Below, piece after piece: positions 1 to 49,308 of a DNA stretch of 49,308 bases (the first letter of the stretch is position 1; every line of letters starts with the position of its first letter). Where the stretch lies: the IMG/VR virus record IMGVR_UViG_3300031753_000010, positions 1 to 49,308 of that record; one strand, 5' to 3'. This stretch comes from a virus. The notes under the pieces were generated by a model that saw nothing but the letters and a program-made list of their open reading frames with translations, did not search any database and had not been told where the DNA came from. The translations under genes and the position numbers were made by a program.

Positions 1-74
1 AGATCGGCGACGAGCAGCCCCGTCACCATCATCGCGTGTTGCGTCTGGATCAGATAGTGCTCCGGCACCTCATC
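1..74. repeat. Terminal direct repeat marking the circular junction (left copy)
   Basis: Bases 1-74 are identical to bases 49235-49308. The YqaJ-like reading frame runs through both copies without interruption, so this is the overlap left when a circular or circularly permuted genome is assembled as a line. The unique length is then 49,234 bp. Confidence 0.95.
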
Positions 75-242: not shown

Positions 243-386
243 CTATCGGTGCGCAGCCGTAGCCGACTTCAAGCGCCGGTGGGAAAGCGTGATCGCAGGC
301 TGCCGGGTGTTCGATGAGAGCTGGCCCAAGCCATGAGCCAGTTCAGCAGAGAGCTTCGGTTCCGATGTCCGCGCTTCTGTGCTCAT
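243..386 (-). CDS. Small hypothetical protein (47 aa) between the DpdA-like gene and the YqaJ-like gene
   Basis: The ATG at 386-384 overlaps the TGA of the DpdA-like gene (ATGA), the coupling used throughout this operon. The frame stays open for 47 codons to a TAG at 245-243, which lies just before the ribosome site of the YqaJ-like gene. The product is polar and basic toward its C-terminus, with no recognisable domain. The start overlap supports it; its size leaves doubt. It is in the same frame as the nuclease but separated from it by the TAG. Confidence 0.4.
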   Translation of the reverse strand: MSTEARTSEPKLSAELAHGLGQLSSNTRQPAITLSHRRLKSATAAHR

Positions 387-1123
387 CCAATCAACTCCCA
401 ATTCTCTTGCACGCCCGCGGCTTGACCGTTCCAGCGATGCGCCGTGGCGTGAGATTCGATGCGGTCAATCAACACTATTGCCTTCGTTGTCTTCGAGGCA
501 GGCACGTACGTCCCGACCCACCGCTTGTCGTAGCCCACGTTGCGGGAGCTATTGCACGAGTCCGCAGACGAGAAAGGTATGTGAGAAATGATCGAGGCTC
601 GCAGCATCCGCAAGCCGTGGAGCTTCGTGAGGGGCATCCCATCGGCGTCGGTAGCTATCCTCATAGCCTGCGCCATGCGGTCCCACCAGGGCTTAGAGCC
701 GGGATCTTTCCACTTGCCGCTAGACCCCAAGGCCACGCGCGGCCACTGACGGCAGAGGCGCTGAAGCCGCTCTAGGCACTCGTGCAGATGCCACACCGGG
801 ACACCTAGCTTGCCGTGCGGCCACTGGCACAGGAGGCGCTCGTTCGCTTCCTCGTCGCCGTCGATCACGTCGGGGATGATCGCCCAATCGACGGCCGGAT
901 GCTTGAGCCACTTCCCGCACCACTCCACGTATCCGTCGAAGTCGTAAGCCTTCCCTTGACGCCACGCGCTGAAGGCGCCGTTATCTAGCGCCACCGACTG
1001 GCAAATCTCGACGGCCTCAGGGAGCTGCTCGGGCGACTCAAAGCTCACCATCGCGTGCCGGCCCTTCATGGCGCGGAGCATTGCTAACACAGGAGTCATC
1101 GGCAGACCGTGGTAATGGATCAA
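383..1123 (-). CDS. DpdA/TGT-like 7-deazaguanine transglycosylase (246 aa)
   Basis: This protein resembles phage proteins related to queuine tRNA-ribosyltransferase and DpdA, which swap guanine for a 7-deazaguanine base in DNA. Visible marks are the opening MIHYHG.PMTP, the LDNGAFS motif (D47, equivalent to DSGGF of TGT), IPDVIDGD (residues 83-90), PVWHLHE, and a late SSADSCNSSRN segment. It starts with TTG (1123-1121) overlapping the TGA of the preceding gene (TTGA); this places the conserved MIHYHG opening exactly at the N-terminus. No preQ0 synthesis gene (folE, queC, queD or queE type) was found in the window, so a host-derived base would be needed. Family assignment is from motif memory. 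A tRNA substrate cannot be excluded. Confidence 0.6.
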   Translation of the reverse strand: MIHYHGLPMTPVLAMLRAMKGRHAMVSFESPEQLPEAVEICQSVALDNGAFSAWRQGKAYDFDGYVEWCGKWLKHPAVDWAIIPDVIDGDEEANERLLCQWPHGKLGVPVWHLHECLERLQRLCRQWPRVALGSSGKWKDPGSKPWWDRMAQAMRIATDADGMPLTKLHGLRMLRASIISHIPFSSADSCNSSRNVGYDKRWVGTYVPASKTTKAIVLIDRIESHATAHRWNGQAAGVQENWELIG

Positions 1124-1641
1124 CGCTGCTCCGCTGTCGTCTCGTGAGCGTTTACTACTTTTCGAATCTCGTCGTAGAGCGCTTTACTTGCGTGGTGCTC
1201 GTCTAGGAAACAGGACCGCAGTAGAGAGCGCAGCCTGTTAGCATCTGGCTGTGCTTCGTCCGGTTGTGCGGCTTGAGGCACATCGCCGGTGTATGGGTCG
1301 AGTCCATGCTTGATGTTCTCGGCCATCTGAGCCAGCGTGACGCCGCCAGTGCCGGCGCTACCTATCTCGTCCGGTTGTGCGGCTTGCAGGGCTTCGCTGG
1401 CGATAGCCTGCACATCATCGAATGTTGCTCCCGGTTTAACCGTGAAGGCACCGTTCGCTATCCGCTCCAGCGCCGCGCGCAGCCGCTCGATCTCGGCCCG
1501 CAGCTCCAGATGCAGCACGTCGTCTACGGCCTGCTGAAATTCCCCATCGAGCGAGTACCGGGGAGACTGTAGAGCCAGAACTGCGAGCACCTTGGCCGCA
1601 CGTAAGAGCTGCTGGTCGATAGTTCGGTGAGCTTCGGTCAT
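1120..1641 (-). CDS. Hypothetical early protein with coiled-coil segment (173 aa)
   Basis: I do not recognise this protein. It has a helical, heptad-like stretch around residues 45-62 (LRAEIERLRAALERI) and a linker in which QAAQPDE occurs twice (about residues 87-93 and 123-129), suggesting a flexible spacer between an N-terminal and a C-terminal helical part. The start ATG at 1641 overlaps the stop of the upstream RadC-like gene (ATGA), and its own stop overlaps the TTG start of the DpdA-like gene. It is therefore translationally coupled to both. Confidence 0.65.
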   Translation of the reverse strand: MTEAHRTIDQQLLRAAKVLAVLALQSPRYSLDGEFQQAVDDVLHLELRAEIERLRAALERIANGAFTVKPGATFDDVQAIASEALQAAQPDEIGSAGTGGVTLAQMAENIKHGLDPYTGDVPQAAQPDEAQPDANRLRSLLRSCFLDEHHASKALYDEIRKVVNAHETTAEQR

Positions 1642-2099
1642 GCAGCCCTCGCGAAGTACGGAACCAGCGGCGCAGCGGCCATGAGTTCCAGCAGCTTCTC
1701 ACTCATGCGCTCGTAGCAAGCGAGGCGTGCGTCAGCACGCCGAGTGGCGGCGGCGTAGGCGGCGTCGGCGGCGGCGGCGTAGGCGGCGGCGGCGTTGCGC
1801 TCGAGGAAGCGCTTCGCGATCTCGCGCGGGTGAACCACCGCGCGGTCGATCGTGCCCGTGAACAGGATGTCGAGGCCGAGCACGCGGTGACGCGCATCGA
1901 GCCACACGGCGGCGAACGCTTCATCATCGCGGCCGGCGAGAGCGACCCGCAGGAATTCACGCACCTGCCCCGGCCGAGTGAGGTAACTGCCGCGCGTCTC
2001 GGCGACCAAGTACTGTGCAGCGGCAAGGCAGACTTCGCTCTTATCGGCGCGGCGGTAACGGCCGCGCGGCCCGCGCACCATAAGCTCAGAGGCACTCAC
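1638..2099 (-). CDS. RadC/JAB-domain-like protein lacking the JAMM metal motif (153 aa)
   Basis: Residues about 40-105 read as the front half of a RadC-type JAB/MPN domain: a YLTRPGQVREFL helix, DEAFAAVWLDARHRVLG, GTIDRAVVHPREI, then a helix ending in RNAAAA. In the family this is followed by the HNHPSG...D metal-binding motif. Here the frame instead enters an alanine/tyrosine run (AYAAAADAAYAAA) coded by GC-rich direct repeats at 1746-1764 and 1770-1788, then an unrelated helical tail. Zinc binding is therefore not expected. The start is a GTG at 2099 overlapping the previous stop (GTGA). It may be a decayed or repurposed RadC-like protein; RadC's own function is not settled. Confidence 0.6.
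   Translation of the reverse strand: MSASELMVRGPRGRYRRADKSEVCLAAAQYLVAETRGSYLTRPGQVREFLRVALAGRDDEAFAAVWLDARHRVLGLDILFTGTIDRAVVHPREIAKRFLERNAAAAYAAAADAAYAAATRRADARLACYERMSEKLLELMAAAPLVPYFARAA
1746..1788. repeat. GC-rich direct repeat inside the RadC-like gene
   Basis: The 19-base unit GGCGGCGGCGTAGGCGGCG occurs at 1746-1764 and again at 1770-1788, a period of 24 bases (eight codons). It codes for the alanine/tyrosine run that sits where the JAMM metal motif should be. Such repeats are prone to slippage, which may explain how the domain was altered. Confidence 0.75.
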
Positions 2100-10463: not shown

Positions 10464-10696
10464 GCAGTACGACGGCACGAGTTAACGGGCACGATCACGT
10501 CGGCGGCCCCGAACCAACGCACCGGCACGTGGGTGTGTGGACGCTGGAAATGCGCAACATTCTGCTGGCTGATTACCAGGAGGCGCGCGCTCGAGGAACG
10601 CTGCCGGCGCTCGCGGCAAAGCTCGGCGTCGATCTGTACCAGCTCTATTCGCAAGCTCACCGCCTCGGCCTCGCCCGCGGGATTCGCCGTCGATGA
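10460..10696 (+). CDS. Small DNA-binding protein (78 aa)
   Basis: The start is the GTG at 10460, which overlaps the previous TGA (GTGA) and lies eight bases after GGAGG. The C-terminal half, LPALAAKLGVDLYQLYSQAHRLGLAR, resembles a helix-turn-helix in which the second helix precedes an RLGL segment, as in many small phage regulators. The N-terminus contains two His-rich spots. Function unknown. The next gene starts within its stop codon. Confidence 0.55.
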   Translation: MSSTTARVNGHDHVGGPEPTHRHVGVWTLEMRNILLADYQEARARGTLPALAAKLGVDLYQLYSQAHRLGLARGIRRR

Positions 10697-11343
10697 CCGC
10701 GCAGTTGTTACACGCCTACAAAGCCGTCGCCGTCGCCTCACTCAAGCCGTGGGAGCGCAACCCACGCACGCACTCGCCGGCGCAGATCGAGCAACTGCGA
10801 GCGTCGATCAGGGAATTCGGCTTTACGAATCCCGTGCTGATCGATCACAACGGCCTCGTGATTGCCGGGCACGGCCGCATCGAGGCGGCGAAGCTCGAAG
10901 GACTGACCGATATCCCGGCGATAGAGCTGCGCGGCTTGACGACTGAGCAGAAGCGCGCGCTGGTGATCGCCGATAATCAGTTGGCGCTCAAAGCCGAGTG
11001 GAATGTCGACTTGTTGAAGTTGGAGCTGCAAGCCCTCACGGGTAAAGGGTTCGATCTGTCGGTGCTCGGCTTCGAGCCCTTTGAGCTGAACGAGTTGCTC
11101 GGCGATCCCAATGATCCCAACAGTGAGTGGCGAGGCATGCCAGAGTTTGGGCAGGAGGATAAGCGCGGCTTTCGCACGCTGCTGGTGCACTTCGCCGACG
11201 CTGCGGCAGTCGAGGACTTCAAGCGCCTGATCGGGCAGAAATTCACGGACGAGGCGCGATACATCTGGCATCCGAAAGTCGAGTGGGATCGCGTCGGGCA
11301 GCTCGCCTATGTCTCGACGGCAGCGCCCGATGTCAAGCCCTAG
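10693..11343 (+). CDS. ParB-like nuclease-domain protein (216 aa)
   Basis: Residues about 10-100 form a ParB/sulfiredoxin-like domain: LKPWERNPRTHSPAQIEQL, FGFTNPVLIDHNG, the signature IAGHGRIEAAKLEGL, then the DNQLALKAEW segment seen in ParB-like proteins that accompany DNA-modification enzymes. The C-terminal half is unassigned. Such ParB proteins in phages usually sit next to a DNA methyltransferase. Here the next gene is a TAGT-type glycosyltransferase, with a 14-base overlap, which suggests that this protein guides or assists DNA modification. The ATG at 10693 overlaps the previous TGA. Confidence 0.85.
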   Translation: MTAQLLHAYKAVAVASLKPWERNPRTHSPAQIEQLRASIREFGFTNPVLIDHNGLVIAGHGRIEAAKLEGLTDIPAIELRGLTTEQKRALVIADNQLALKAEWNVDLLKLELQALTGKGFDLSVLGFEPFELNELLGDPNDPNSEWRGMPEFGQEDKRGFRTLLVHFADAAAVEDFKRLIGQKFTDEARYIWHPKVEWDRVGQLAYVSTAAPDVKP

Positions 11344-12241
11344 ATTCCCGCTGTACATTGTCAGCAAAGGCCGGGCGGAGACTCGCCATACTGCGCGCGC
11401 TCTAGAGGCAATCGGCGTTCCGTACTGGATCGTCGTCGAGCAGCAAGAGCGCGACGTGTATGCTGCGGTGATTGAGCCGTCGCGGGTGTTAGTGTTAGAT
11501 CCTGCATATCAAGAGCGCTACGACACCTGCGACGATCTCGGCACTACTAAGAGTAAAGGCCCCGGCCCTGCGCGCAACTTTGTCTGGGATCATGCGATAG
11601 CATCCGGTGCAGCGTGGCACTGGGTGATGGACGACAATATTCGCAGATTCTATCGCTGCGTTCGCAATCGCCGAGTACCCATCGGCGACGGCACTGGGTT
11701 TGCCGTGATGGAGGATTTCTGTCTGCGGTATACAAACGTCGCGATGGCAGGGCCGAACTACAAGATGTTTATCCCGAGCCGCTCGCCGTTTCGAGCGATG
11801 TGTCTTAACACCAGAATCTACAGTTGCAACCTCATCCGCAATGACGTGCCGTTTCGCTGGCGCGGGCGGTACAACGAGGATACTGATCTATCGCTGCGGA
11901 TGCTCAAGGCCGGTTGGTGCACGGTGCTATTCAACGCCTTTCTGCAAGATAAGCTCGCGACGCAACTCGTGCGCGGCGGCAATACGGCCGACTTCTATGC
12001 GCGCGAGGGTACCGAAGCGAAGAGTCGGATGTTAGTGCGGCTGCACCCCGATGTATCAGAACTGATGTGGCGGTTCGGCCGCAAGCATCATCTCGTTCAC
12101 TACAAGCGCTTTCAGAATAACCGCCTCAAGCTCCGAACCGATATCACCGTCGCAGACGGCGTTGATGACTACGGCCTCACGCTCGTTAAGCTCCGCGAGA
12201 CCGTCGCTGCACGAGTTACGCCACCGCCGCAACGCTCGTGA
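11330..12241 (+). CDS. TET-associated-type glycosyltransferase (TAGT) (303 aa)
   Basis: The pattern matches TAGT-family glycosyltransferases linked to phage DNA base hypermodification: an opening PLYIVSKGRAETR, RNFVWDHA, HWVMDDNIRRFYR (the DDN nucleotide-sugar/metal motif, about residues 101-113), AGPNYKMF, RYNEDTDLSLRMLKAGW (about residues 180-196), and a late RGGNTADFY followed by an HHLVHYKRF segment. These enzymes transfer a sugar to a modified pyrimidine in DNA. No TET/JBP dioxygenase, hydroxymethylase or methyltransferase was found in the window, so the acceptor base is unclear. The ATG at 11330 lies inside the end of the ParB-like gene. The acceptor and donor are inferred from the family. 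Confidence 0.75.
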   Translation: MSSPRFPLYIVSKGRAETRHTARALEAIGVPYWIVVEQQERDVYAAVIEPSRVLVLDPAYQERYDTCDDLGTTKSKGPGPARNFVWDHAIASGAAWHWVMDDNIRRFYRCVRNRRVPIGDGTGFAVMEDFCLRYTNVAMAGPNYKMFIPSRSPFRAMCLNTRIYSCNLIRNDVPFRWRGRYNEDTDLSLRMLKAGWCTVLFNAFLQDKLATQLVRGGNTADFYAREGTEAKSRMLVRLHPDVSELMWRFGRKHHLVHYKRFQNNRLKLRTDITVADGVDDYGLTLVKLRETVAARVTPPPQRS

Positions 12242-48792: not shown

Positions 48793-49308
48793 TCACCCTT
48801 TGATGTTGATAAAACGCGCGTCTATGAAGCTCGTCGGCTCGACGCTGTAGCCCTTGCGCTCGATTTTCTGCCGCCGCAGCGCGCGGCCGTCCGGGAAGCG
48901 CAACAGCGCCGCCTCGCCCATGAAGTCGAGCAGCGCCGCCTTCGCCTCTTTCTCGAATGCTGCGGCCGCTTTGCCTTCAGCCTTCGCCCTCTCTAACTGT
49001 GGGCGCCAGTGATTCACCATCAAATCATCGGCGTCGACCGTCTGCCCGTTAGAACCGGGATAGAGTTTCTTCAGCACGTTGATTGCGCCCGGCGAGCGCA
49101 AGTCGAGCTGCGGGCGCGTGCGGTGCAGGACGTGCTGCCAGAATTCGGACTCGGCTTCGAGCATTGCGGCGTGCAGCTCCGGGTCGGCCTCGATCGTGTA
49201 AATGCGAAAGTCCTGGCCCGCGATCAACACGGCAAGATCGGCGACGAGCAGCCCCGTCACCATCATCGCGTGTTGCGTCTGGATCAGATAGTGCTCCGGC
49301 ACCTCATC
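48793..49308 (-). CDS. YqaJ-type phage exonuclease, C-terminal part (gene crosses the circular junction)
   Basis: This is the 3' part of the nuclease that begins at base 230. In the window it is open to the right edge; the GTG at 49302 is an internal valine, not the true start. The part carries the YqaJ C-terminal pattern: HYLIQTQHAMMVTG, then DLAVLIAGQDFRIY, then a helical segment rich in E, A and W. The stop at 48793 lies just before the ribosome site of the next leftward gene, a probable annealing protein. That makes a nuclease/annealase pair as in lambda exo/bet, which is inferred from order. Confidence 0.75.
   Translation of the reverse strand, partial: DEVPEHYLIQTQHAMMVTGLLVADLAVLIAGQDFRIYTIEADPELHAAMLEAESEFWQHVLHRTRPQLDLRSPGAINVLKKLYPGSNGQTVDADDLMVNHWRPQLERAKAEGKAAAAFEKEAKAALLDFMGEAALLRFPDGRALRRQKIERKGYSVEPTSFIDARFINIKG
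49235..49308. repeat. Terminal direct repeat marking the circular junction (right copy)
   Basis: This is the exact copy of bases 1-74 at the right end. It lies within the YqaJ-like nuclease gene, whose coding frame continues at base 1 of the window. Confidence 0.95.

Follow-up and report, generated by a model that had tools for sequence, protein, structure and literature searches.

Phages that carry dpdA without genes for preQ0 or G+ synthesis constitute the largest DpdA group (76 phages; Hutinet 2019, PMC6884629) and also the one that is understood least. The literature leaves both their action on DNA and the source of the base as questions, with host-made or imported preQ0 as the proposed substrate (PMC6884629). 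The same questions are raised by a dpdA-like gene on the viral contig analyzed here, a stretch of 49,308 nt (IMG/VR record IMGVR_UViG_3300031753_000010) that we refer to as the window. An earlier note on this DNA had recognized the gene and implied that a dpdA without preQ0 genes is unusual, a combination that already defines the largest described dpdA group. The parts that merit follow-up are instead the coupling pattern observed among the relatives of the gene and a set of QueD-like partners lacking the catalytic cysteine.

The gene spans positions 383 to 1,123 on the minus strand, which the earlier note had not specified, and is a real and intact open reading frame coding for a 246-residue protein with a (β/α)8 barrel of the TGT superfamily. 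Its codon-position GC is typical for a gene. Translation starts at a TTG codon preceded at a distance of 5 nt by a Shine–Dalgarno-like GGAG (1129–1132, minus strand), as read from the sequence. Since residue 1 lines up with Met1 of nine annotated homologues and the GGAG is placed at this distance, we take this start to be correct. Upstream lies an open reading frame of 173 residues (1120–1641, minus strand) to which the family scans of Pfam and PHROG assigned nothing. Its stop codon and the start of dpdA share 4 nt (TTGA), making translational coupling of the two genes likely; relatives with queE, queD or yhhQ upstream show the same layout. Both sequence marks on which the superfamily assignment had originally been based are present, DNGAF as residues 47–51 and IPDVIDGD as residues 83–90. 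The assignment itself is confirmed by PHROG 887 (phrog_887, ‘queuine tRNA-ribosyltransferase’), matching residues 1–212 with an E-value of 2.6e-64, and by tblastn, which retrieved 133 phage records at E ≤ 1e-5 with a best match of 52% identity (E 9e-73). No Pfam model and no PADLOC entry matched the protein.

We next consider the genomic context. An exact direct repeat of 74 bp at the two ends of the window (1–74 and 49235–49308) makes it very probable that the contig represents an entire circular genome (~49.2 kb), belonging to a contractile-tail phage with 63% GC. Six-frame searches of the window for QueD/PTPS (PF01242) and QueC (PF06508) were negative, family scans of its gene models gave no match to FolE, QueF, Vut_1/YhhQ or radical-SAM QueE, and profiles of phage FolE, QueD, QueE, QueC and YhhQ matched nothing. 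A full preQ0 pathway (folE, queD, queE, queC) on this complete contig can thus be ruled out. As the contig appears circular and complete and all searches were negative, the lack of preQ0 genes, already claimed in the earlier note, most probably characterizes the phage itself and does not stem from a truncated sequence. The window scans revealed no integrase.

The AlphaFold2 model of the protein, calculated from a 62-row alignment, displayed eight barrel strands with a mean pLDDT of 89.4 and a pTM of 0.88. Residues D47, D85, H112, G133, H169, P183, D188 and S189 are invariant across 19 aligned proteins, including the DpdA proteins of CAjan, Iggy, RHEph05 and Knocker, as well as in 62 of 62 clade members, and map in the model to the C-terminal ends of strands 3–8 or their immediate vicinity. 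The catalytic aspartates of TGT enzymes occupy such C-terminal strand ends, exemplified by D102, D156 and D280 of the Z. mobilis enzyme. Direct sequence similarity to proven DpdA proteins is weak (~26%, E ~3e-4). A profile comparison with DpdA, the check suggested along with the original assignment, clearly linked the protein to the CAjan, Iggy, RHEph05 and Knocker enzymes (hhalign probability 99.2, E 6.5e-20). The DpdA proteins of CAjan, Seurat, Iggy and 9g, phages with a full preQ0 or G+ pathway, share the equivalents of D47, D85, H112, H169 and D188, whereas the window protein is 60–65 residues shorter, only ~20–26% identical and devoid of accompanying pathway genes.

Structural comparison ranked unrelated barrels first when Foldseek was used on the PDB, whereas VIA-align placed TGT-family chains at the top, with Cap10 (9ntn; Z 16.1, 227 aligned residues), archaeal TGT (15.4) and Zymomonas TGT (15.1) tied by our convention of treating rows within 1 Z as equal; PDB sequence searches returned chance matches only. 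The similarity to the Zymomonas and human TGTs (Z 14–15), together with the name queuine tRNA-ribosyltransferase given to the family by PHROGs and many records, could point to a protein acting on tRNA like bacterial TGT and altering host or phage decoding during infection. We regard this as unlikely. The protein shares the TGT fold but contains neither the CxCxxC…H zinc motif, Cys190 being the only cysteine after the barrel nucleophile, nor the C-terminal tRNA-binding domain, and the missing zinc motif rules out membership of the tRNA-guanine transglycosylases. Moreover, it comprises 246 residues versus 375 for E. coli TGT, to which hhalign found no detectable profile match (probability 0.2%), the queuosine pathway is already present in the hosts, the window contains no tRNA gene, and the characterized phage kin modify DNA.

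The top-ranked structural match, within its tie with archaeal TGT, raises a second alternative, namely a 7-deazaguanine-binding or protein-modifying TGT derivative resembling Cap10 of type IV CBASS, perhaps serving counter-defence. Cap10 is itself a member of the TGT enzyme family that has been remodelled and binds a protein N-terminus carrying an NDG modification (PMC11996544). However, the complete DpdA active-site set is invariant, although a remodelled binder would have no need of it, and the sequence links lead to DpdA. The genomic company differs as well: neither a CD-NTase nor a QueC-like Cap9 is found among the window gene models, the window likewise lacks any QueC and any PADLOC match, and the neighbours in relatives are preQ0-supply genes, not CD-NTase or Cap9. 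A Cap10-like role therefore appears very unlikely. DpdA2 proteins belong to the same TGT superfamily but are described as lacking the conserved histidine of DpdA (PMC6884629). The window protein retains this residue as H169, which is kept in 62 of 62 rows and corresponds to His196 of that paper as judged from the alignment with CAjan, arguing against membership of the DpdA2 group. Vibrio phage nt-1 encodes such a DpdA2, and the window protein gave a weak structural match to an nt-1 protein (E 2.5e-3).

We thus consider it probable that the gene encodes a DpdA of the singleton clade inserting host-derived preQ0, or a derivative thereof, into DNA at low density. Such an enzyme, with DNA as the substrate we infer, would function as a DNA guanine transglycosylase, cutting the glycosidic bond of selected guanines with D188 as the nucleophile and inserting preQ0 or a derivative that is made or imported by the host queuosine pathway. 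The product would be low-level dPreQ0 or dADG in the phage DNA, the phage providing the insertion step only and the host likely supplying the base. Fold, conserved active site, absent preQ0 genes and the operon coupling of close relatives to preQ0-supply genes are direct observations on this gene and its family; exact base, modification level and any benefit to the phage are, like the DNA substrate, inferred.

Several known systems provide precedents. The dpdA of phage 9g, expressed alone in E. coli, leads to the incorporation of host preQ0 into plasmid DNA, and CAjan without its dpdA loses the dPreQ0 modification (PMC6884629). The dependence on a host-made 7-deazaguanine put forward in the earlier note is probable. 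Salmonella phage 7-11, in which only dpdA is encoded, contains 50 dADG per million nt (~0.02% of G; PMC6884629), the dpdA-only Pantoea phage MED16 contains 354 dADG per million nt (~0.13% of G; PMC8306585), and the modification is undetectable in the dpdA-carrying mycobacteriophage Orion (PMC6884629). MED16 DNA is still cut by the tested G-site enzymes, excepting those sensitive to m6A (PMC8306585). Based on the 7-11 and MED16 data, host-fed DpdA is already known, and the suggestion in the earlier note that the modification guards the DNA, here from restriction, is unproven at such levels. Compared with the window protein, the DpdA of 7-11 shows 39% identity across 190 residues and that of MED16 35% across 198. 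Gamma-proteobacterial DpdA singletons form a separate cluster (PMC6884629), which corresponds to group 3 of Hutinet 2019, PHROG 887 and cluster DpdA/TGT_1 of the MED16 paper, and resemble the window protein in family, length (~230–260 residues), active-site residues and a genome without preQ0 genes. The window gene differs from them in residing in a contractile-tail phage of 63% GC and in belonging to a 20-row sub-clade of which seven rows are coupled to queE by a 4-nt overlap.

Host supply agrees with the distribution of QueC, which scored above its curated cut-off in 49 of 49 searched genomes carrying the gene. As QueC is also present in 252 of 299 evenly sampled Pseudomonadota (84%), this co-occurrence is confounded by taxonomy and provides only mild support for a dependence on QueC. 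For the window phage, a supply of host preQ0 is assumed.

Relatives of the protein are widespread. A single-sequence scan of viral contigs returned none, and these contigs were therefore searched by alignment, yielding at least 588 viral-contig stretches in addition to at least 95 genome stretches. Many of the 133 phage records represent temperate phages of Enterobacterales, Vibrio and Pseudomonas, in which the gene is located in an accessory region beside integrase, Ead/Ea22 or recombination genes. The nearest kin of the window phage by structural genes, 11 contigs with capsids of 61–82% identity and two of them of ~50 kb, are all devoid of dpdA, ruling out a core gene of this lineage; portal matches were mostly in the range of 38–47%, to phages of many hosts. 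The gene is thus mobile accessory cargo that moves horizontally. Its absence from such close kin and the mere trace-level modification in relatives would also be compatible with a decaying or neutral passenger (‘moron’) having little or no activity in the window phage. This we find improbable, given the intact reading frame with its good start site and gene-typical codon-position GC, the invariant catalytic residues and the strong conservation over many phage types and phyla, in favour of the singleton DpdA reading. The closest genome homologue (60%; L171, 10001–10741) comes from the Proteobacteria MAG SZAS-87. As judged from the open reading frames around it, its neighbourhood contains DsbA/conjugation-like genes together with one resembling PAPS reductase instead of obvious phage genes, and it is possibly part of an integrative element. 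A 1.7-kb record labelled as ‘Staphylococcus phage’ (OR850331.1, hit H5) encodes a DpdA whose score is similar to that of the Salmonella phage proteins, and the record looks mislabelled or contaminated.

Analysis of the neighbourhoods of 171 family members revealed a preQ0-supply gene adjoining dpdA in 31 of them, comprising QueE (7), QueD-like proteins (13), YhhQ/Vut-type transporters (10) and QueC together with QueE (1). Examples of each partner type were confirmed by Pfam and NCBIfam, with NCBIfam scores below the equivalog cut-offs except for the QueC of locus L069. Upstream partners usually overlap dpdA by exactly 4 nt. Supply genes within 5 kb touch dpdA in 30 of 33 cases as compared to 5.7 expected by random placement, a comparison whose p-value is inflated by near-copies. 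The starred branches of the tree alone, a quick tree with many weak branches, require at least four (QueD), three (QueE) and six (YhhQ) state changes, indicating that the pairings were gained or lost repeatedly. The window protein, itself uncoupled, falls into a clade of 20 rows (SH-aLRT 99) containing all seven QueE-coupled rows.

Inspection of 50 records over their whole length, the window among them and many of them genome fragments, identified a QueD-like protein in seven, QueC in one and both in none. Within the sequence available, the coupled phages thus mostly lack the rest of the preQ0 pathway, a pattern consistent with an enzyme that is fed by the host and may or may not be accompanied by one supply gene. 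All seven upstream QueE partners keep the CxxxCxxC motif, and the QueC of L069 keeps the SGGLDS loop and the zinc cysteines. The repeated pairing with single supply genes, including in near relatives, constitutes independent evidence for a substrate derived from the preQ0 pathway. Relative to the part of the 7-deazaguanine literature with which we compared it, single-gene coupling to dpdA is a new comparative result. Separately, we observed a family of about 80–100 residues located directly upstream of dpdA in 21 of the 22 loci having it and downstream in one. Its reading frame usually overlaps by 4 nt and ends at the dpdA start (e.g., L102, L111, L113, L135 and L162), mostly in Pseudomonas and Burkholderia-type prophages; the one member scanned (L111) had no Pfam or NCBIfam match.

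The QueD-like partners are of two kinds. Those of L063, L119, L147 and L163 retain a cysteine four residues ahead of the HGH motif. Nine others (L045/46/48/58, L047/54/104, L062 and L172) are devoid of this cysteine, keeping the zinc histidines and the Asp–His pair, and feature an arginine in place of the C-terminal glutamate of E. coli QueD. Their genes adjoin dpdA, e.g., at L045:9603-10004, L047:2117-2446, L062:1854-2273, L104:9675-10004 and L172:1424-1855. In E. coli QueD, Cys27 is catalytic and Glu110 binds the pterin. Having lost both residues, the nine proteins should not make 6-carboxytetrahydropterin, and a new function beside dpdA appears possible.

Tentatively, and with slightly less than even confidence, we propose that singleton phage DpdAs are no orphans but carry out the insertion step in a system fed by the host, with host preQ0 flux limiting how much modified base is produced. 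Phages would repeatedly have added a gene raising this flux, i.e., queE, a canonical queD, queC with queE or a YhhQ-type importer, often by 4-nt coupling, and some would instead have acquired a QueD-like protein without the catalytic cysteine and the pterin-anchoring glutamate, maybe with a new 7-deazaguanine-related function. This model is open to a direct test, as modification should track the host que genes and increase with the coupled gene.

Two further genes of the window were noted. Two genes upstream of dpdA, positions 1638–2099 (minus strand) encode a small DNA-repair-type protein (phrog_10276) with an alanine/tyrosine-rich tail, probably a truncated RadC-like JAB protein as one member of the scanned set matched PF04002. 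A TAGT-family glycosyltransferase (11309–12241, plus strand; PF20691, phrog_842) overlaps a ParB-domain gene (10693–11343) directly ahead of the terminase genes, and the window scans detected no TET, hydroxymethylase or cytosine methyltransferase alongside it. This glycosyltransferase is ~50% identical to copies in T4-like Aeromonas phages and has very many relatives among viral contigs, with 599 found.
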